Source: Comamonas sp. lk (GTDB lineage Bacteria > Pseudomonadota > Gammaproteobacteria > Burkholderiales > Burkholderiaceae_C). From it: 35,857 nucleotides of DNA. Below are positions 1,755 to 29,075 of this stretch, piece after piece. The position numbers and the translations under genes are program-made. The notes beneath the pieces are model-generated. The model worked only from the letters and a program-made list of their open reading frames with translations. It did not search any database and was not told where the DNA came from. Position 1 is the stretch's first letter, and each line of letters begins with the position of its first letter. Location of the stretch: positions 1 to 35,857 of the forward strand of contig CAMATX010000016.1 in the NCBI GenBank assembly GCA_945861345.1, read 5' to 3'.

Positions 1755-1847
1755 TGGTGCCCGAGACCGGAATCGAACCGGTACGCACGTTATTCACGTT
1801 GCGGCGGATTTTAAGTCCGATGTGTCTACCTATTTCACCACTCGGGC
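1755..1847 (-). tRNA. tRNA-Leu(UAA)
   Basis: The minus strand folds as a class II tRNA. It has acceptor stem GCCCGAG/CTCGGGC, a D arm, anticodon loop CTTAAAA with anticodon UAA, a long variable arm, T arm ACCGG-TTCGATT-CCGGT, discriminator A and an encoded CCA at 1757-1755. The gene is intact. Its 3' end faces the integrase, so it is the presumed attachment site of the element at the left edge. Confidence 0.95.
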
Positions 1848-1854
1848 CCTGGGT

Positions 1855-1879
1855 GCATTTGCCACCATTTGGCAAATGC
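1855..1879. repeat. Perfect 10-bp inverted repeat between the reductase-like gene and tRNA-Leu(UAA)
   Basis: GCATTTGCCA is followed by loop CCATT and then TGGCAAATGC, giving a perfect hairpin in the 45 bases between the end of the reductase-like gene (1893) and the 5' end of tRNA-Leu. There is no U-tract on either strand, so it is not a canonical intrinsic terminator. It may be a transcript-end or processing hairpin. Confidence 0.55.
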
Positions 1880-1892
1880 GGGCGCTACGCAA

Positions 1893-2972
1893 TCAGGAGC
1901 CGATTCTACCCATGGCCCGATTGCGGGTCAGCCAGCCGTCCACGCGGCTGACGGCCTGGTCCACGGCGCCGGAATGCAGCCCGTGCTGGGCTGCTACGAG
2001 TTTGATCAGTAAGTCGATCCGTTCGATGTGCGTAGCACCGCCGGCCAAAGCGCGTGCTGCCGACGACGGCTTGAGCAAGCCCAATGCAGCGGCGGCATAT
2101 TTGTCAAAGGGCACCATGTCCTCAGGGGCCGCACCCAGCAACTCACACAAGGAGGTTACCCACGCGTACACCGCTTGGGATTGCGCCAGATCGCCATGCA
2201 CTGCCCGCTCGATTGGCTGAACACTGTCTTCCAAAACGCAGCGGTAGTTGCCAGTCATCAACATGCTCCACTTGGCCAGCGGTACAAACAAAGATTCGTG
2301 GAACTTGAGTTTCACCGGCAAGTCGATCGCCTCGCCATCGACGACTAGGCGAGCGCCGGCGATGTCGTCCTGCAGACCTTGCAGCATCGCGTTGTGCGCC
2401 GGGTCGTCAAAACGTGCCACCTTGAAGTTGGTCGGCAAACCCACTTGCAGCACGTTGGCAGGCTCTTCAGGCGGCCTAAACGCTTGGGGGTCGGGGCTGC
2501 ACAGCGTCATCAGCCCGGGAACAAAGGCGTCCCAAAGGTCCGGATCCAGAAAACTGGCGCGGCACGCCTGGGGGTCGATGCCGGCAATGCGCGCCAAATA
2601 GGGCAGAGGCGGCATATTCATAATCGACATACACGGCACCTTGGCCTGCGCAATGCGCTGCATCAGTGCCCGAACCTCAGGATCGCTGTATTGAGGCTCC
2701 TGCATTGCGAGGCACACCAAATCGTAGTCTGCCGCCTGAACCTGCGTTGGACTTTGTGCGTCCAATGCACCTGGGAGCTGACGCGAGTCAATCTCCACCA
2801 TGGTCGCACGCCCCTTGACCGACATCCTCACACGCGTGCCCTCTTGGTTGATCAGCGCTGCCGTAGTGGCGCGGCAGACCAAAGTCACGCTGTGCCCTGC
2901 CATCAGCAATTTGCTGCCCAAAAGCGACCCGTAGGATGCGCCCAATATCAATACTTTGTAATGCGTAGCCAC
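1893..2972 (-). CDS. Ketopantoate reductase (ApbA/PanE)-like NAD(P)-dependent oxidoreductase
   Basis: This 359-residue protein begins with a Rossmann dinucleotide-binding fold (VLILGASYGSLLG, about residues 8-20, then a beta strand ending VTLVCR), as in the ApbA/PanE ketopantoate reductase family. The second half (from about residue 220, with KLKFHESLF and AKWSMLMTGNYR) fits the helical C-terminal domain that carries the family's catalytic residues. True PanE proteins are usually near 300 residues, so the substrate is uncertain and it may act on another 2-oxo acid. The start is GTG at 2972, preceded by AAGGGG at good spacing. It lies alone between tRNA-Leu and the divergent motor genes, with no pantothenate genes nearby, so I give no gene symbol. 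Confidence 0.72.
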   Translation of the reverse strand: MATHYKVLILGASYGSLLGSKLLMAGHSVTLVCRATTAALINQEGTRVRMSVKGRATMVEIDSRQLPGALDAQSPTQVQAADYDLVCLAMQEPQYSDPEVRALMQRIAQAKVPCMSIMNMPPLPYLARIAGIDPQACRASFLDPDLWDAFVPGLMTLCSPDPQAFRPPEEPANVLQVGLPTNFKVARFDDPAHNAMLQGLQDDIAGARLVVDGEAIDLPVKLKFHESLFVPLAKWSMLMTGNYRCVLEDSVQPIERAVHGDLAQSQAVYAWVTSLCELLGAAPEDMVPFDKYAAAALGLLKPSSAARALAGGATHIERIDLLIKLVAAQHGLHSGAVDQAVSRVDGWLTRNRAMGRIGS

Positions 2973-3123
2973 AAATATCCCCTTGAAGTTGAAATCATTG
3001 CTTTTGCACGAAAAGTGGCCGCATTGAGTGCATAGGCGTCACGCAAAACCCGAAATTTTAGCTAAATAGACAAAGATAGTTGGTTAAACTGGTTTATCCG
3101 CACTATTTACTCAAGCAAACACG

Positions 3124-4098
3124 ATGCAAAGTATTCAACACACAGGGTTTTGGGAGCAGTGGCAACTGCTTTTTGTGCTGGCCTTGATTGCGGCGGTTGC
3201 CTTGAATTTCGCAATCAAATTTGTGCGCGAGGGACTTGCGCTTGCACTTGCGCTCGATGACGTTATCGAAGGCCTGCGTCGTCTCAAAGCAGAGGCTGTG
3301 GACGGCGCCATTGCGCTGGAGGAGGTGCAAGCCCAGGTCATGCACAGCCCGCGGATGCGCCACCTGTGGTCGCAATACACGCACTGCCTGCATGTCCCTT
3401 GGGACCAAATGGCTTCTGCGAACCGTGGGGCGCGCAGCGCCAGCCGAGTGCAAGTACTTTCGGAAATGTTTTTTACCGCCATGAAGGCCAAGTCCGGCGG
3501 GACCGTGGTGGACATGAGCAACATCGAACAGCAGGTGGCCAACGATCCACATTTGTCTGACCTGTGGGCCCAATATTCCCAGGCCCTAGACACCTTGGGC
3601 CAAGAACCCGAGCCCACACCCACCCGCGCGCGGCGCTGGCGCGCTTCGGCGCTGGCAGAGACCTTTTTTTCGGAGCATGCGCTGGTGGACTCGCCCTTGC
3701 GCTCCGATTTTTACAAACACGTGCCGGGCATATTGACGGGCTTGGGCATTATCGGAACCTTTTCAGGCCTGATCATGGGGCTGGTGCATTTCGATGTATC
3801 CAACCCGGAGAACACCCAAGCCCAACTCAGCGTATTGGTGCAAACCGTGGGACAGGCCTTTTTTGTGTCTGCTTTGGCTATTTCATTGGCCATGCTTTTC
3901 ACCTGGATTGAAAAAGCGCTATTGACTGCCCGCTATGCGCAAGTCGAAATACTGCAAAACCTGCTCGACAGCATGTTTGAAGCAGGCTCCGGCCAGGAAA
4001 ACCTGGAGCGCCTGGTGGTGGCCACCGAAGCCCAAGTGACGCTGCTAAGCGACTTGCTTGACGCCGTGCGCAGCGCGGCGCTGCCCCACAATCGCTGA
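3124..4098 (+). CDS. ZorA-like MotA/TolQ/ExbB-family proton channel subunit
   Basis: This 324-residue inner-membrane protein has MotA/TolQ/ExbB topology: TM1 at about residues 12-33, a ~165-residue cytoplasmic segment, TM2 at about 199-221 (VPGILTGLGIIGTFSGL) and TM3 at about 239-261. The TM2 motif and the next gene resemble ZorA, the pentameric stator subunit of Zorya anti-phage systems. The cytoplasmic segment holds two copies of an LWxQY...ExFF module (about 68-118 and 134-184). After TM3 only ~60 residues remain, whereas characterised ZorA proteins carry a long intracellular tail. It is followed 11 bases later by the ZorB-like gene, so the two are probably co-transcribed. No Zorya effector gene is adjacent. 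Membership of the channel superfamily is secure; the Zorya relationship is inferred from motifs and the partner. Confidence 0.82.
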   Translation: MQSIQHTGFWEQWQLLFVLALIAAVALNFAIKFVREGLALALALDDVIEGLRRLKAEAVDGAIALEEVQAQVMHSPRMRHLWSQYTHCLHVPWDQMASANRGARSASRVQVLSEMFFTAMKAKSGGTVVDMSNIEQQVANDPHLSDLWAQYSQALDTLGQEPEPTPTRARRWRASALAETFFSEHALVDSPLRSDFYKHVPGILTGLGIIGTFSGLIMGLVHFDVSNPENTQAQLSVLVQTVGQAFFVSALAISLAMLFTWIEKALLTARYAQVEILQNLLDSMFEAGSGQENLERLVVATEAQVTLLSDLLDAVRSAALPHNR

Positions 4099-4109
4099 CC
4101 TACTGGCCC

Positions 4110-4859
4110 ATGTTTAACCTGCAAACGCCCCGCAACAGACGCGCCAAAGACGAGGCAGAAAAACCGTTTTGGATCTCCTTCTCCGACCTGATGACCGCCT
4201 TGATGGTCTTGTTTTTGATCGCCATGGCAGTAGCCCTGATGGTGCTCACCCAAGGCCTGCGCACCATCGAGGACAAGCGGCGCGACCGGGAGGAGACCAT
4301 CAAAGCGTGCATCGCCGACATGGAAGGTCTGGCCCGGCGCAGCGAATTTGCGGGCGTCAAGATTAGCGGCCACACCATCGACTTTGGGCCATTGGCCGAA
4401 TTTCGAAAAAATGGCAACCAACTTTCCGAAGAGCGCATGGCGTTTTTGCGCGCTTTTGTTCCCAAAGTCTTAGAGGTATCGCGAAAGCCCAATTGCCAGC
4501 AGTGGCTGCGCCGCTTTGTGGTGGAGGGTTTTGCCAGCCAGGAGGGTTCGTACCTGCACAACCTTAACCTCAGCCTGGAGCGTTCCGAACGGGTCTTGTG
4601 CGTCCTGCTCGATGCCAGCGCGCCCAACGCACCCAGCCGGGCAGACCGCAAAACGATCCGCCAACAGTTTCTGGTGGGCGGGTCCTCGTTTAACGCCGCC
4701 ATCCTCGACAAACCCGAAAAAAGCCGCCGCGTTGCCCTGCGTCTGGAGTTTAAGGACTTGCGCACCGTCTGCGAAAAAGGCGATGTCGACTGCGAAGATG
4801 CCGAAACACCGCCCATCCCCTGGGATGATGACTCAAAATGCCCGGTGCTAAGCCGGTAA
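4110..4859 (+). CDS. ZorB-like / MotB-type OmpA-domain motor protein
   Basis: This 249-residue protein has a short cytoplasmic N terminus and one membrane helix (about 19-46) beginning FWISFSDLMTALMVLFL, with Asp26 at the position of the proton-carrying residue of MotB/TolR/ZorB proteins. A periplasmic OmpA/MotB-like domain follows (about 80-215). The peptidoglycan-binding signature is recognisable around NLNLSLERSERV (151-162), but the usual Asp of the GxxD motif reads Ser143 in GFASQEG. The C-terminal tail contains Cys221, Cys228 and Cys244. Together with the preceding ZorA-like subunit it should form a 5:2 ion-driven motor anchored to the cell wall. Unlike typical Zorya loci, no zorC, zorD or zorE-like gene follows; the next gene is a convergent small lipoprotein. 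Confidence 0.82.
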   Translation: MFNLQTPRNRRAKDEAEKPFWISFSDLMTALMVLFLIAMAVALMVLTQGLRTIEDKRRDREETIKACIADMEGLARRSEFAGVKISGHTIDFGPLAEFRKNGNQLSEERMAFLRAFVPKVLEVSRKPNCQQWLRRFVVEGFASQEGSYLHNLNLSLERSERVLCVLLDASAPNAPSRADRKTIRQQFLVGGSSFNAAILDKPEKSRRVALRLEFKDLRTVCEKGDVDCEDAETPPIPWDDDSKCPVLSR

Positions 4860-4873
4860 GTCGTCGCGCAAAC

Positions 4874-5137
4874 TCATTGCCTCTCCTCTTGCGTGCACCA
4901 ATTGCGGGCTTTCGCTTCGTAGTCGCTTCGGGTTTGTCCGGTGGCCTCTGAAATGCGCCAAGGCGTCTTTTCGGAATTGGAATCCCATACCTTGAGGCGG
5001 GACTGTACGCAACGGTCGACGGGGCTTTCGCCACATGCAGCGACTGCAACCGACAAAAATACAACCATGCAATAGAAAGCAGGCCATTGCCGGATTCCTA
5101 GGCTGGATTTGAGATCGTAAATCTTTCGGTAGATCAC
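4874..5137 (-). CDS. Small putative lipoprotein of unknown function
   Basis: This is an 87-codon frame from a GTG start. The N-terminal part has basic residues and then a hydrophobic run ending in VAVAAC, a good lipobox with Cys35. The mature ~52 residues (starting CGESPVDRC) contain two more cysteines and are charged, as expected of a small periplasmic lipoprotein. The exact start is uncertain, since no strong Shine-Dalgarno is seen and an internal ATG at residue 24 would leave a very short signal. It converges on the ZorB-like gene with 14 bases between the stops. I do not recognise the family. The overlapping 126-codon frame in another phase looks like a shadow of this one. Confidence 0.5.
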   Translation of the reverse strand: MIYRKIYDLKSSLGIRQWPAFYCMVVFLSVAVAACGESPVDRCVQSRLKVWDSNSEKTPWRISEATGQTRSDYEAKARNWCTQEERQ

Positions 5138-5251
5138 CTAATTTGCGGCTCCAAATTGCAGCACTTGCCGCCTCAAACGCGGCCATAGCCTGGTTGATAG
5201 GAAGTCGGACGGCGCAATGGTACGCCAAGCTTTTAAATACAGGGAGATTGT

Positions 5252-5325
5252 TGGAGGCGCGGTCCGGAGTCGAACCGGACTAACCGGATTTGCAATCCGG
5301 GGCATAACCGCTTTGCTACCGCGCC
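5252..5325 (-). tRNA. tRNA-Cys(GCA)
   Basis: The minus strand reads GGCGCGG...CCGCGCC with anticodon loop TTGCAAA (anticodon GCA), T arm GTCCGG-TTCGACT-CCGGAC, discriminator U (typical of tRNA-Cys) and an encoded CCA at 5254-5252. It lies downstream of tRNA-Gly on the same strand, but a strong terminator lies between them. Confidence 0.96.
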
Positions 5326-5400: not shown

Positions 5401-5476
5401 TGGAGCGGGAAAAGAGTCTCGAACTCTCGACCTCAACCTTGGCAAGGTTGCGCTCTACCAACTGAGCTATTCCCGC
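5401..5476 (-). tRNA. tRNA-Gly(GCC)
   Basis: The minus strand starts GCGGGAATAGCTCAGTTGG and folds as a normal cloverleaf with anticodon loop TTGCCAA (anticodon GCC). The T arm is GAGAG-TTCGAGA-CTCTT, the discriminator is U and CCA is encoded at 5403-5401. Confidence 0.97.
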
Positions 5477-11749: not shown

Positions 11750-14700
11750 CTAGCGCCGCACCCTAAACCAGGCCGCGTACATGGCCGGCAAGGCCAGCAA
11801 GGTCAGGACTGTGGCCACAATCAGTCCGCCCATGATGGCCACAGCCATCGGGCCCCAAAACACCGAGCGCGAGAGGGGAATCATCGCCAAAACAGCGGCT
11901 GCAGCCGTCAACACAATCGGGCGCAGGCGGCGCACCGCCGACTCCACAATCGCGTCCCAGGCCGGCACGCCACGCGAGCGGTCCTGCTCGATTTGGTCGA
12001 TCAGGATCACCGAATTGCGCTGAATCATGCCCATCAGCGCAATCACGCCCAGGAGGGCCACGAAGCCAAAAGGCCGCCCAAAGCTCAGCAAAGCGGCGGC
12101 AACGCCGGCAATGCCCAGCGGGCCGGTCAAAAACACCAGCATGGCACGGCTAAAGCTGTGCAACTGCAGCATCAACAAAGTAAAGGTGATGAACAGCATG
12201 ACCGGAACCCCCGCCGCGATGGAACTGGAGCCTTTGCTGCTTTCCTCGACGGCGCCAGCCACCTCAATGCGGTAGGCGCCACCGCGGTTTTGCCAGTCCG
12301 CCTCGATCTTGCGCAGGGTGGGCAGCAACTCGGCCGTCACTGTGGCACCTTGCAGGCCTTCTGCGATATCGCCCTGCACCGTGATGGCGTAGTCGCGCCC
12401 CTCGCGCCACATCACGCCTGGCTCCCAGACAAATGTGGGTTTGGCGATCTGGGTGAGCGGAATCGAGCGCCCGCTGGCCGTAGGCAGGTAGGCGTTGCCG
12501 ATGTCGGAGATCGCGTTGCGCTCCGATATCGGCTGGCGCAGCACAATATCTATCAGCTTGTCGCCATCCCTGAATTGCCCGACCGTGCTGCCGGTAAGCA
12601 AGGTGCGCGACGCCTGCGCAATCGACTGGCTCGTCACCCCCAGCGCACGCGCCTTGGCCTGGTCCACCTCGAGGCGGATGACCTTGACCGGTTCGTTCCA
12701 GTTGTCGTTGACGCCGCGCATGTGGGCGTTGGCGCGCATGGCCTCTTTCACCTCATTGGCGCGCAGGCGCAGCGTGGCGGGGTCTTCACCGACTACGCGG
12801 AACTGCACCGGATAAGCCACCGGCGGTCCGTTGGGCAAGATCTTGACACGCGCCCGCACCTCGGGAAATTCCTGTGCCATGATGGTCGGCAGTCGGATGC
12901 GTAGGCTTTCGCGCAGCTTCAAGTCCTTGGGCAGCACGATAAATTGCGACACATTGGACTGCGGAAAAATCGCATCCAGTGGCAAATAAAAGCGCGGCAC
13001 GCCCGAGCCAATCCAGGTGGTGACATTGACCACGCCCGCCTCTTGCATCAGGCGCGCCTCGATGCGGCGGGTCACTTCCTCGTTGGCGGCAATGGAGGTG
13101 CCCTCGGCGTACCAGACGTCCATCAGCACCTCAGGGCGGCTCGAATCGGGGAAAAACTGTTGCTGCACCCGCCCCATGCCGCCGATACCCAGCGCAAAAG
13201 TCAGCACCATCAGGCCGATGGTGATCCAGCGGTGTTGCACGCACCAGTTCACCGTGCGCCTAAAGGCGTTGTAAAACGGCGTGTCAAACACCTCCTGGTG
13301 CTCTGCGCCGTCCTGGGTCGACTTGGTCTTGAGCAGCACGGTGCCCAAATACGGCACGAAATACACCGATACCACCCAGCTCACCAATAGCGCCAGCACC
13401 GTCACGCCAAAGATGGCGAAGGTGTACTCACCCACCGTCGAGCGGGCGATGCCAATGGGCAAAAAGCCCACCGCCGTAATCAAGGTGCCGGTCAGCATCG
13501 GCATAGCCGTGATCTCGTAGGCAAAGGTGGCGGCGCGCACTTTGTCGTAGCCCTCTTCGATTTTGCGCACCATCATTTCTACGGCGATGATGGCGTCGTC
13601 GACCAGCAAGCCCAGCGCGATGATCAAGGAGCCGAGCGAGATTTTGTGCAGCCCAATGCCCCAGTAATACATGCCCAAAAACGTCACCGCCAGCACCAGC
13701 GGAATGGTGATCGCCACCACCAGCCCCGGCCGCACGTCCACGTAATAACGACGCCACCAGGGCTGCTGCCCAGGCCGCTTGTGCAAGCCCAGGGCGACAA
13801 AACTGACCAGCAGCACAATCATGATCGCCTCGATCAGCACGGCGATAAATTCATTGACCGACTTGGCCACCGCACTGGGCTGGTCTTGCACCTCCACCAA
13901 ACTGATTCCCACGGGCAAAGCGGCACCGATCTTGGTCGTGGTTTTCTTAAGCGCTTTGCCCAGGGCGATGATGTCGCCGCCCTTGGTCATGGACACGCCC
14001 AGGGCAATCACCTGCTGGCCCTGAAAGCGCACTTTCACGCTGGCGGGGTCCACATAGCCCCGCTTCACGTCGGCGATATCGCCCAGGCGCAGCTGGTTGC
14101 CCGAGCTGCCCCGAATCGGCATGGCACGCAATTGCTCTGCAGCCTCAAAAGCGCCGCTCACGCGCACCTGCACCACGTCCAGCGGGGTTTGCATGGTGCC
14201 TGCGCCTTCCAGCGCGTTTTGCTGTGCCAGTTGGGCCAGCACCTGGTTGATATCCAAACCCAGTTGCGAGAGGCGGCGCTGCGACATCTCGATGTACAGC
14301 TTCTCGTCCTGCGCGCCAAACAACTCGACTTTGTTCACGTCGGGCACGCGCAGCAGTTTTTGGCGCACGTCATCGGCCACCTCTTTGACCTCGGCGGGCG
14401 AAAAACCCTCCGCCTTCAAGGCGTAAATCACGCCATAGACGTCGCCAAATTCGTCATTAAAAAATGGCCCCACCACGCCCTGGGGCAAGGTGCCGCGCAT
14501 ATCGCCAATTTTTTTGCGTACGGTGTAAAACAAATCCGGCACCTCGGCGGCGCGGGTCGAGTCCTTGAGCTGGAAAAGAATCGTGGTCTCGCCCGGCTTG
14601 GAAAAACTGCGGATCTTGTCCGCACCGGGCACCTCTTGCAAAGTGCGCTCGAGCTTGTCGGTCACCTGCTGGGCCACCTGCGTGGCCGTGGCGCCAGGCC

Positions 14701-25763: not shown

Positions 25764-26954
25764 ATGGCCATGCAAATTTCCCGGCGCGCCCAGGCCATTG
25801 AGCCCTTTTATGTCATGGAGGTGGCCAAAGCCGCCGCCGACATGGCGCGCGGCCTGCAGGGCAGCGCCAGCCCCATGGTGTTTTTGAACATCGGCGAGCC
25901 CGATTTCACCGCTCCGCCCGCAGTGCAAGCGGCCGCGCAAGAAGCCATTGCCCAGGGGCGCAGCCAGTACACGCCGGCCACCGGTCTGCCCCCACTGCGC
26001 GAGCGCATCAGCCACTGGTACAGCCAGCGCTTTGGCCTGGCAATTGCGCCCGAGCGCATTGTGGTGACCGCCGGGGCCTCGGCCGCGCTGCAACTGGCCT
26101 GCCTGGCCTTGCTCAATGCTGGCGACGAAGTGCTCATGCCCGACCCCAGCTACCCCTGCAACCGGCACTTTGTCAGCGCGGCCGATGCCAAGGCAGTCTT
26201 GCTGCCGACCACGGCCGACCAGCGCTTTCAACTGAGCGTTGCGCAGGTGGAGGCGGCCTGGGGCCCGAACACGCGCGGCGTGCTGCTGGCCTCGCCCTCC
26301 AACCCCACGGGCAGCTCCATCGATCCGGCAGAGATGGCGCGCATCGCCCAGGCGGTGCAGGCGCGCGGCGGCGTCACCTTGGTCGATGAGATTTATTTGC
26401 CGCTCAGTTACGACGCCCGTTTCGGCCAAAGCGCTTTGGCGCTGGACGAGTCCGTCATTAGCATCAACAGCTTTAGCAAGTATTTCAATATGACGGGCTG
26501 GCGTCTGGGCTGGCTGGTGCTGCCGCCCGCTTTGGTGCCGGTGGTCGAGCGCTTGGCGCAAAACCTGTTCATTTGCCCGAGCGCGATTGCACAGTACGCC
26601 GCCTTGGCCTGTTTTGAGCCTGAAAGCATTGCCATATACGAATCGCGGCGCGCCGCCTTCCAAGCGCGGCGCGACTATTTTGTGCCCGCCTTGCAGCAAC
26701 TGGGCCTGGACGTGCCTGTCGTACCCGACGGCGCGTTTTATGCCTGGGCCGATTGCACCCAGGTCAGCGCCCAACTGGGCGTGCAAGGCAGCTGGGACTG
26801 CGCCTTTGCGCTGATGGAGCGTGCCCATGTGGCGGTCACGCCGGGGCGCGATTTTGGCAACTTCCAGACCGGGCAGTTCATCCGTTTTTCCACCGCCAGC
26901 TCCATGGAACAATTGGAAACCGCGATTGCGCGCTTGCGCCTGTTGCTGGTTTAG
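25764..26954 (+). CDS. PLP-dependent class I/II aminotransferase
   Basis: This 396-residue fold-type I aminotransferase has NIGEPDFTAP near the N terminus, TAGASAALQLA for phosphate binding, SPSNPTG (177-183) with Asn180, Asp208 in TLVDEIY, the Schiff-base Lys239 in SFSKYFNMTGWRLGW, and Arg247 in that segment. The exact amino donor is not readable; aspartate or alanine aminotransferase-like annotations are plausible. It sits between nusB (21 bases) and tolQ (41 bases), where many tol operons have ybgC instead. Confidence 0.9.
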   Translation: MAMQISRRAQAIEPFYVMEVAKAAADMARGLQGSASPMVFLNIGEPDFTAPPAVQAAAQEAIAQGRSQYTPATGLPPLRERISHWYSQRFGLAIAPERIVVTAGASAALQLACLALLNAGDEVLMPDPSYPCNRHFVSAADAKAVLLPTTADQRFQLSVAQVEAAWGPNTRGVLLASPSNPTGSSIDPAEMARIAQAVQARGGVTLVDEIYLPLSYDARFGQSALALDESVISINSFSKYFNMTGWRLGWLVLPPALVPVVERLAQNLFICPSAIAQYAALACFEPESIAIYESRRAAFQARRDYFVPALQQLGLDVPVVPDGAFYAWADCTQVSAQLGVQGSWDCAFALMERAHVAVTPGRDFGNFQTGQFIRFSTASSMEQLETAIARLRLLLV

Positions 26955-26995
26955 TAGCGACTTGCTTTGTCATCCACCTCACCACCCTTGACACC

Positions 26996-27694
26996 ATGAA
27001 CCAAGACCTCGACATCCTCCAACTTGTGCTGCACGCCAGCTTGGTCGTGCAACTTGTGATGCTGCTTTTGCTGCTGGTCTCGGTGGCCAGTTGGGCAGCC
27101 ATTTTCCGTAAGATCTTTGGCCTGCAACGCGTCAAGTCGCAAAACGAGGGCTTTGAGCGCGAGTTTTGGTCCGGCGCCAGCCTCAATGAGCTCTACTCCA
27201 CAGCGGCGAGCAAGGGCAAAGCCTCTGGGCCCATGGAGCGCATTTTTGCCAGCGGCATGCGCGAGTTTCAAAAACTGCGTGAACGCCGTGTCAGCGATGT
27301 GGCCACGCTCATGGACGGCGCACGCCGCGCGATGCGGGCCAGTTTTCAGCGCGAGATGGACGAAGTCGAGAGCAACCTGTCCTTCCTGGCCTCGGTCGGC
27401 TCCGTCTCACCGTATGTGGGCTTGTTTGGCACGGTCTGGGGCATCATGCACGCCTTTACTGGCCTGGCCGCGCTGCAACAGGTGACGCTGGCCACGGTAG
27501 CACCGGGCATTGCTGAGGCCCTGGTGGCCACGGCCATTGGTCTGTTTGCGGCCATTCCTGCGGTCATCGCGTACAACCGCTTTGCGCGCGATATTGACCG
27601 CATTGCCATCAGCCACGAGACTTTCATCGAAGAGTTTTCTAACATCTTGCAACGCAATGTGAGCGCGCAGGTCAGCGTTGCTGCGCCGCGTTAA
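26996..27694 (+). CDS. tolQ: TolQ, Tol-Pal proton channel subunit
   Basis: This 232-residue inner-membrane protein has the three-helix TolQ topology: TM1 at about 11-38, a cytoplasmic loop with FEREFWSGASLNELY, then TM2 (VGSVSPYVGLFGTVWGIMHAF) and TM3 (GIAEALVATAIGLFAAIPAVIAYN). With TolR it forms the proton-driven motor that energises TolA for outer-membrane constriction at division. The start at ATG 26996 is chosen because the upstream frame is a shadow of the aminotransferase. tolR follows after 10 bases. Adjacency to tolR and tolA supports TolQ over ExbB. Confidence 0.93.
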   Translation: MNQDLDILQLVLHASLVVQLVMLLLLLVSVASWAAIFRKIFGLQRVKSQNEGFEREFWSGASLNELYSTAASKGKASGPMERIFASGMREFQKLRERRVSDVATLMDGARRAMRASFQREMDEVESNLSFLASVGSVSPYVGLFGTVWGIMHAFTGLAALQQVTLATVAPGIAEALVATAIGLFAAIPAVIAYNRFARDIDRIAISHETFIEEFSNILQRNVSAQVSVAAPR

Positions 27695-27704
27695 GGAGCC
27701 CGCC

Positions 27705-28130
27705 ATGCCAGCAGTGAGTTCACGGGGGCGCGGACGGCGCACCATCAGCGAGCCCAATATGGTGCCCTTCATCGATGTGATGTTGGTGCTGCTCATCATT
27801 TTTATGGTGACCGCGCCACTGATCACGCCCAGCGTGATCGATTTGCCCAGCGTGGGCAGCGCCGCCAAACAACCCGACATGGTGATCCAAGTCATCGTAG
27901 GCAAAGACGATGGTTTGGAACTCAAAACCAAAGATGGCAGCGACGCGGTCAGCCTGGATACTTTGGCCAAGGCAGTGCGCCAAGCCCAAAGCTCCGCCCC
28001 GCCCAATGCAGCGGCCGTGGTGATCAGCGCGGACAAGACCGTGCAGTACGAGCGCGTGGTCAAGGTGATGGACACCTTGCAGCGCGCCGGTATTGCGCGT
28101 ATCGGCCTGTCCGTCCAATTGGCGCCTTAA
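27705..28130 (+). CDS. tolR: TolR, Tol-Pal motor subunit
   Basis: This 141-residue ExbD/TolR-family protein has one N-terminal membrane helix (about 19-42, NMVPFIDVMLVLLIIFMVTAP) containing the essential Asp24, and a periplasmic domain ending RIGLSVQLAP. The start at ATG 27705 is preceded by AAGGAG. It pairs with TolQ and acts on TolA, whose ATG lies 6 bases downstream. Confidence 0.93.
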   Translation: MPAVSSRGRGRRTISEPNMVPFIDVMLVLLIIFMVTAPLITPSVIDLPSVGSAAKQPDMVIQVIVGKDDGLELKTKDGSDAVSLDTLAKAVRQAQSSAPPNAAAVVISADKTVQYERVVKVMDTLQRAGIARIGLSVQLAP

Positions 28131-28136
28131 TTGCCC

Positions 28137-29075
28137 ATGCGCCAAAGCCAAGCGCACACGGATTTCATGCCCCCGCGCAGCCCGGGGATGGGGCCGGCTT
28201 TGGTTTTGGCGGTGATCGTGCACATTCTTTTGGTCATTGCGCTGTCGGTGGCGGTGCGCTGGCGCCACCATAGCGTGGAGATCGTCACCGTCGAGGCGCA
28301 ATTGTGGTCCGAACTACCGGTGCAAGCCGCGCCCTCGCCCCCGCCACCACCCCAAGAGGAAACCGTAGTCAGCCCACCACCGCCTGCGGTCGAAGAAAAG
28401 CCGGCGCCGGCGCCCGTGCCCGACCCGGCCATCGTGCTGGCCGAACGCAAAGCTGCCGAGAAAAAAGAGGCTTTGCAAAAAGCGATGGAAGAAAAAAGGC
28501 GCAAGGCCAAAGAGTTGTTGGAGCAGCGCAAAGCCGAACAACGCAAAGAAGACGAGCGCAAACAGGCCCAGCGCGAGGAGGACAAGAAAAAGGCCGAGGC
28601 ACTGAAAGCCAAAGCGGACAAGGCCAAAGAAGAAAAGACCAAACTTGCCAAGGCGGAGCAAGCCAAGAAACTAGAAGAGGCCAAAGCCCGCGAGGAAACG
28701 GCCCAAAGCGAGCAGCGCCTCAAAGAAGCCACCGAACGCGCGCTGCGTCTGGCTGGCGCCAGCGGCAGTGGCAGCGCCACTGGCACGGCCAGCCACAGCA
28801 GCGGTCCTACTGCCAAATACAGCGCCAAGGTAGTAGCGGCCATCCGGCCCAATATTTCGCAACTCAAAGAATTCAGTGCCAGCCTGATGGCCGACTACGC
28901 GGTCTACACCGATGCCAGCGGCAAAGTCATTAGCGCCAAATTGGTCAAACCAAGTGGAGATCCGGCCTGGGACGAGGTGGCACTTAACGCCATCTTGAAA
29001 ACCGATCGCCTGCCGCTGGACGAAAACGGGCGCGTGCCCTCACCCATGACGATCGGCCTCAAACCCCGCGATTAG
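28137..29075 (+). CDS. tolA: TolA, cell envelope integrity protein
   Basis: This 312-residue protein has one membrane helix (about 19-40), a proline-rich stretch (PSPPPPPQ), a long Lys/Ala/Glu-rich coiled coil (about 95-215, repeats such as KAEALKAKADKAKEE), a Ser/Gly linker and a C-terminal TonB-like domain (about 225-312, ending in PMTIGLKPRD). It spans the periplasm to link the TolQR motor with Pal. ATG 28137 is preferred; an in-frame TTG two codons earlier immediately follows the tolR stop. Its last 17 bases overlap the convergent small gene downstream of feoB. tolB and pal do not follow. Confidence 0.93.
   Translation: MRQSQAHTDFMPPRSPGMGPALVLAVIVHILLVIALSVAVRWRHHSVEIVTVEAQLWSELPVQAAPSPPPPPQEETVVSPPPPAVEEKPAPAPVPDPAIVLAERKAAEKKEALQKAMEEKRRKAKELLEQRKAEQRKEDERKQAQREEDKKKAEALKAKADKAKEEKTKLAKAEQAKKLEEAKAREETAQSEQRLKEATERALRLAGASGSGSATGTASHSSGPTAKYSAKVVAAIRPNISQLKEFSASLMADYAVYTDASGKVISAKLVKPSGDPAWDEVALNAILKTDRLPLDENGRVPSPMTIGLKPRD

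Follow-up and report, generated by a model that had tools for sequence, protein, structure and literature searches.

The window, by which is meant the whole stretch of DNA analysed here (35,857 nucleotides), carries a zorA-like and a zorB-like ORF that are separated by 11 bases and lie in an interval bordered by tRNA genes. The features of this locus are as follows.

1755..1847, minus strand: tRNA-Leu(UAA), the left border of the interval
1848..5251, no strand: interval of 3,404 bases from tRNA-Leu(UAA) to tRNA-Cys, holding a reductase-like gene and zorAB (comparison with non-carriers)
1893..2972, minus strand: ketopantoate-reductase-like gene (Pfam ApbA, 21.4 bits, just under the cut-off of 22.2)
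3124..4098, plus strand: zorA-like ORF with ATG start, a short motor subunit of 324 aa (PADLOC, PDB, alignment and hhalign evidence)
3301..3498, plus strand: copy 1 of the repeated TM1-TM2 domain, at residues about 60-125 (hhalign, copy 1 against copy 2)
3499..3693, plus strand: copy 2 of the repeated domain, at residues about 126-190 (hhalign; only one copy is aligned in the full-length ZorA of L022)
4110..4859, plus strand: zorB-like ORF with ATG start, 249 aa, with one membrane helix bearing D26 and an OmpA-like, presumed peptidoglycan-binding domain (PADLOC, Pfam, PDB)
4874..5137, called convergent: lipoprotein-like ORF
5252..5325, minus strand: tRNA-Cys, the right border of the interval
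5401..5476, minus strand: tRNA-Gly, after which lon comes next

The architecture given for the pair in the preliminary description was recovered, since both ORFs, the GILTGLGIIGTFSGL stretch of the ZorA-like TM2, the FWISFSDLMTALMVLFL stretch of the ZorB-like protein and D26 are all present, with the helices judged by eye. The flanks named there stood as regards the reductase-like gene and the tRNA genes. Their weak point is the small lipoprotein: the ORF at 4874-5137 matched no Pfam or NCBIfam family and gave no tblastn match in seven loci, five of which are carriers at the same site, and it was rejected on these grounds as a partner of zorAB. The reductase-like gene was rejected in the same role, because it was not seen in the other neighbourhoods of the short pair; it lies beside zorAB in the Rhodoferax-like lineage only and was not found in L017 and L040. 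Scanning of the locus returned 0 promoter sites against 0.8 expected and three terminators against 4.2 expected. Additionally, a weakly integrase-like gene (Pfam matches below cut-off) was observed at 368-1567, adjoining the 3' end of tRNA-Leu(UAA) at 1755; it perhaps belongs to an integrated element that continues beyond the start of the contig, and the tRNA separates it from zorAB.

Profile searches gave ZorAB as the best matches of the pair, as had been proposed for it. The PADLOC models matched at 1.4e-83 for ZorA1 (PDLC00598) and at 3.9e-81 for ZorB1 (PDLC00611, residues 1-219 of the window protein, nearly full length), and the best PDB matches were ZorAB chains (7e-34 for 8qyk_A and 9.6e-34 for 8qyd_A with ZorA, 1.5e-43 for 8qyd_F with ZorB), which are presumably E. 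coli proteins; with such E-values the ZorAB identity is not due to chance. The scores of the NCBIfam equivalog models were 139.6 against a cut-off of 750 for ZorA1 and 198.5 against 400 for ZorB1, which fits a divergent form of these two proteins. By these profile matches, the window pair is ZorA/ZorB of type I descent; a ZorAB-type motor is common to Zorya types II and III, but the models of these types scored lower. Membership of the Tol/Exb/Mot families was rejected. The motor superfamily is shared with TolQR, ExbBD and MotAB by weak homology, with MotA_ExbB (PF01618) reaching 18.6 bits in ZorA, below the cut-off of 22.9, and PF13677 reaching 24.4 bits (cut-off 24) in ZorB, where OmpA scored 20.3, below its cut-off of 27.2. 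In contrast to those families, the best matches of the window pair are ZorAB, and 26753-29075 of the window holds a separate TolQ-like gene, whose MotA_ExbB match exceeds the cut-off, ahead of ORFs that by our reading resemble TolR and TolA, so that zorAB is probably not the Tol motor of the cell.

In the ZorA-like protein, TM1 is followed by a cytoplasmic domain in two tandem copies and then by TM2-TM3, and there is no rod or tail (helices again assigned by eye). In the best PADLOC ZorA1 model, residues 124-314 aligned to model positions 56-246 of 663, and the remaining 417 positions were unmatched; as the match stops at position 246, the long intracellular tail is absent, in agreement with the preliminary description. 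In the solved ZorA, the counterpart of residues 143-309 is 79-244, with an offset of 65 after one gap, which places T212 and S249 opposite residues 147 (T) and 184 (S) of the solved protein, which we take to be ion-path residues. Both were invariant among the 73 rows of the ZorA alignment, a small number of these rows being fragments of the long type.

The extra length ahead of TM2 is explained by a tandem duplication of the TM1-TM2 domain. Comparison of copy 1 with copy 2 by hhalign gave a probability of 98.1 and an E-value of 7.2e-14 over 59 columns, against 0.35 or less for three control regions. For the window ZorA the copy-against-copy score was 64, compared to a maximum of 41 in 500 shuffles, and among the short ZorA sequences compared pairwise the z value was above 3 in 22 of 25 and the score exceeded all 200 shuffles in 20 of 25. 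Both copies are spanned by all 25 aligned short ZorA, while the full-length ZorA of L022, from the same genus, has 766 aa, one domain copy and a tail. In stop-to-stop frames, complete short ZorA measured 328-394 codons, except for L065 (778, open upstream), and long ZorA 551-848. The zorA of L093, one of the 36 short loci, is truncated where its contig begins and is apparently divided over different frames.

In ZorB, positions E17, P19-S23, D26, N151-S155, R158-S159 and R206-R207 were kept in 33 of 33 short sequences, in all of which the N-L-x-L-S..R-S stretch is identical; D26 was also present in the 21 of 21 long rows. By motif, and not by the published numbering, we equate these positions with the aspartate that binds the ion and the pocket that binds the wall, as discussed in PMC11890865. 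As a separate observation, C221 and C228 (window 4770-4793) were invariant in the 33 short sequences, in a region near the C terminus where the 21 long rows show mostly gaps, and a periplasmic disulfide between them is possible.

The protein search with ZorA found 170 relatives at E 1e-5 among 8,000 candidates scored, the first 90 being 44-95% identical and 186-343 aa long. Among the matches listed, relatives (P0001-P0120) carry the precomputed Pfam family PF28082, which the Pfam scan of the window did not report. When one genome from each of 84,980 species was scanned, 63 loci were recovered, of which 35 were short and 28 long; with that of the window, 36 short loci were available. The labels of the 35 were Comamonadaceae or its genera for 31, only Burkholderiales or betaproteobacterium for three and Akkermansia for one; the last, L068, is a MAG labelled Akkermansia muciniphila, its zorAB groups with Limnohabitans, and it is probably mislabelled or contaminated. 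In the window's genus, the short form was found in 13 of 103 genomes, the long form with zorBCD in G023, and a weak match (E 2e-5) in G103 that was left out of both classes. Limnohabitans had the short form at full length in 22 of 90 genomes, plus one fragment (G546); the genus was recognised from the match in G531, whose coordinates are those of L058. Its carriers include records of named strains, not MAGs, among them Limnohabitans sp. G3-2 and T6-20 (L058 and L063). Of 399 genomes sampled evenly across the family, 25 gave a match, four being short, in 2 of 141 genera. One Limnohabitans genome, G507, has a short ZorA and, at a distance of about 230 kb on the same contig, a long ZorA (open frame of 524 aa), with no zorC match. 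The short form is mainly a feature of freshwater Comamonadaceae, as far as habitat can be read from record titles, and its patchy distribution (13/103, 22/90) resembles that of accessory defence genes.

The short sequences formed one side of a branch in both unrooted comparisons, with support of 100/99 for ZorB (33 of 54 rows) and 100/97 for the ZorA core. Both trees held 54 of 64 rows; L059, L066, L075, L078, L079, L089, L090, L093, L097 and L102 were left out because zorB was unseen, the motif was not found by the script or the sequence was incomplete. For a rooted ZorB tree the short set was thinned to 13 of 33, L098 was dropped for its very long branch and eight outgroup rows were added; these are weak matches, each of which has a DUF3348 gene on its contig at a distance of no more than about 3 kb, and were for this reason taken as type III Zorya. 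In this tree, whose outgroup is very distant and whose bootstrap had not fully settled, the 13 short rows were nested (100/98) among nine rows of the long form; every one of these has a zorC match and six have zorD. The short rows adjoined L073 (96/93), which carries zorABCD. The domain duplication and the tail loss point in the same direction. On these trees, the short pair is one clade nested among type I systems with zorC. The tandem duplication and this conserved clade of type I descent go beyond what had been described for the locus.

In the window's lineage, the cassette splits a group of tRNA genes that lie close together in non-carriers. The distance between tRNA-Leu(UAA) and tRNA-Cys was 7-122 bases in 12 non-carriers of the genus and 1,891-4,757 bases in five distinct carriers, with zorAB inside in each and the reductase gene in four, L017 being the exception; 14 of 19 non-carrier loci entered this comparison, two with an inverted tRNA-Leu being uncounted, and in the other five no tRNA-Leu was seen. 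Integration of the cassette at tRNA-Cys was considered and rejected: the best internal match to the tRNA-Cys 3' end covers only 13 of 18 bases, so no repeat is present. Among the eleven genomes with the highest Lon scores, the window's own included, ten are carriers; in the eleventh, G109, the contig ends 171 bases beyond lon and the carrier state cannot be judged. In total, the short loci occupy at least five different chromosomal neighbourhoods, and their identified flanks are ordinary chromosomal genes. The other sites are beside rpoH (L049), beside a TcdA-like gene and a hydrolase-like gene (L050), beside an O-antigen-ligase-like gene (L053 and its kind), and beside ahcY, either with prfC or with a histidine kinase.

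Nei-Gojobori dN/dS values were 0.054-0.213 for zorA (12 of 13 pairs, one being saturated) and 0.017-0.187 for zorB (13 pairs), the pairs with dS near or above 1 being rough estimates. By this measure, the short zorAB is under purifying selection. It is highly improbable, then, that the pair is the degenerate leftover of a Zorya operon that is being lost, as the missing tail and effectors and the apparently broken zorA of L093 might imply: the measured pairs have dN/dS far below 1, the short sequences form a single old clade, and a domain copy has been gained. The 35 further loci with the short pair also mean that the window locus is not a case of local decay, and a remnant or an assembly artefact was rejected, with one possibly broken copy (L093) in the whole set.

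Purifying selection, together with the fixed chromosomal site kept across the window's lineage and the conserved wall-binding domain, would be consistent with a housekeeping motor of the envelope, working in the maintenance of the wall or the outer membrane by analogy with TolQR or MotAB. This assignment is possible but less likely than not, since five further proteins of the MotA/ExbB/TolQ family are encoded in the window's genome (one of them inside the window, beside the TolR/TolA-like ORFs) and the pair is absent from most genomes of both genera.

The absence of a Zorya effector gene beside the pair was borne out. With the G023 genes as queries, zorC and zorD were unmatched in all 36 short loci, that of the window included, within the available DNA (14 of the 36 with about 9 kb or more on each side, the others cut by contig ends), and no effector conserved beside the pair in relatives and lost only here came to light; the same queries found zorC in 17 and zorD in 12 of 28 long-ZorA loci. 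Eleven long loci gave no zorC match; four were cut before zorB and seven have zorB, so that long forms too can lack a zorC match, and a truncated zorC was seen in four of the seven. A truncated zorC located 3' of the short pair was rejected, as the five matches in 34 loci (E 0.003-0.72, the best of which spans 52 aa of the opposite strand) were taken as chance. The four truncated genes represent another reduced form of Zorya, in which long ZorA and ZorB are followed by a small gene like the N-terminal part of ZorC (about 150 residues), with no zorD match.

L084, 12397-12936: small ZorC-N-terminal-like gene (tblastn)
L094, 12129-12593: small ZorC-N-terminal-like gene (PADLOC ZorC1, 1.1e-10)
L096, 12313-12846: small ZorC-N-terminal-like gene (PADLOC ZorC1, 2.2e-8)
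L085, near 12,490-12,780: small ZorC-N-terminal-like gene (tblastn)

The searches were extended to whole genomes, many of the carrier genomes being incomplete assemblies. In the window's genus, zorC was found in 0 of 13 carriers and in 1 of 103 genomes (G023), zorD-like helicases at E 1e-30 in 0 of 13 carriers and 39 of 103 genomes (full length only in G023), and ZorF, the DUF3348 protein that marks type III, in 0 of 13 carriers and 38 of 103 genomes. One PADLOC model of ZorE, the nickase of type II, matched in 0 of 16 carriers. In Limnohabitans, zorC-like matches occurred in 4 of 90 genomes, three with a long ZorA and one a short carrier, G581, which alone among the 22 carriers of that genus showed a weak match (22%, E 1.2e-7), on another contig. 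The proposal of a free-standing motor therefore stood, while its branch with unlinked effectors was weakened unless the effector is a new one. An effector of such a new kind could use the doubled cytoplasmic domain, in place of the rod, as its docking site, and the presence of both domain copies in every aligned short ZorA means that something may bind there. Nevertheless, the known effectors searched for (ZorC, ZorD-like helicases, ZorF and one model of ZorE) were not found in the carriers tested, bar the one weak zorC-like match, no neighbour gene was common to all flank arrangements of the short pair, and we regard a defence motor with such an unlinked partner as rather improbable.

A minimal form of phage defence would need no nuclease: the motor would sense damage to the wall by the phage and open as an ion channel, and the cell would be depolarised, stalled or sacrificed. 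Descent from type I Zorya, retention of the wall-binding and ion-path positions and the patchy distribution are all in favour of this explanation. However, the identified flanks are of the ordinary kind described above, dN/dS is low, and ZorAB lacking effectors did not protect. According to PMC11890865, both the rod and the wall-binding domain are required for defence by Zorya I and II, and there was no protection after deletion of ZorA residues 237-696 or from ZorAB without ZorC and ZorD; PMC8565338 likewise states that ZorAB without effectors is unprotective. We consider minimal defence possible but unlikely.

Compared to type I Zorya, the window pair retains the channel core of ZorA with its T and S positions, ZorB with D26 and the N-L-x-L-S..R-S stretch, and a sister position to a system with zorABCD, but it has no ZorA rod, no zorC or zorD was found with it, and its TM1-TM2 domain is doubled. 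We consider it fairly probable that the short pair is an effector-free rotary motor descended from type I Zorya, likely a wall-gated ion motor or channel of the envelope; the immune, unlinked-effector and housekeeping proposals for its job are narrower, overlapping versions of this same reading. The sequences show that ZorA has kept its channel core, lost its cytoplasmic rod and doubled its TM1-TM2 domain, and that ZorB has kept the membrane aspartate and the OmpA-like wall-binding domain. Homology and the conserved residues suggest that five ZorA would surround two ZorB, as in Zorya, that ZorB would grip the peptidoglycan while ion flow turns ZorA, and that activation of the motor would be gated by the wall. 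With neither a rod nor a nuclease, its output should not be the published one, in which a nuclease is recruited through the rod. The output might be the ion flux itself, with local loss of membrane potential upon disturbance of the wall; alternatively, the enlarged cytoplasmic collar might contact a cell protein encoded elsewhere. Among the literature titles and abstract openings searched, an effector-less short form of Zorya was not described, and the 2025 Nature paper on the Zorya structure may mention it.

In the usual account of Zorya, motor parts were recruited into immunity. The lineage of the short pair appears to have gone one step further, keeping the motor, discarding the rod and the nucleases and duplicating one domain, a pattern suggestive of a defence machine retained for another function. 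A more specific version, which we put forward with reserve, is that a defence motor was domesticated in freshwater Comamonadaceae as a stand-alone envelope machine, its nuclease-recruiting rod exchanged for a doubled cytoplasmic collar and its present work, the driving or gating of something at the wall, non-immune. As a tail-less motor has already been made by nature, it becomes possible, in the Limnohabitans strains with the pair, to ask directly what a wall-anchored ZorAB does without its rod.
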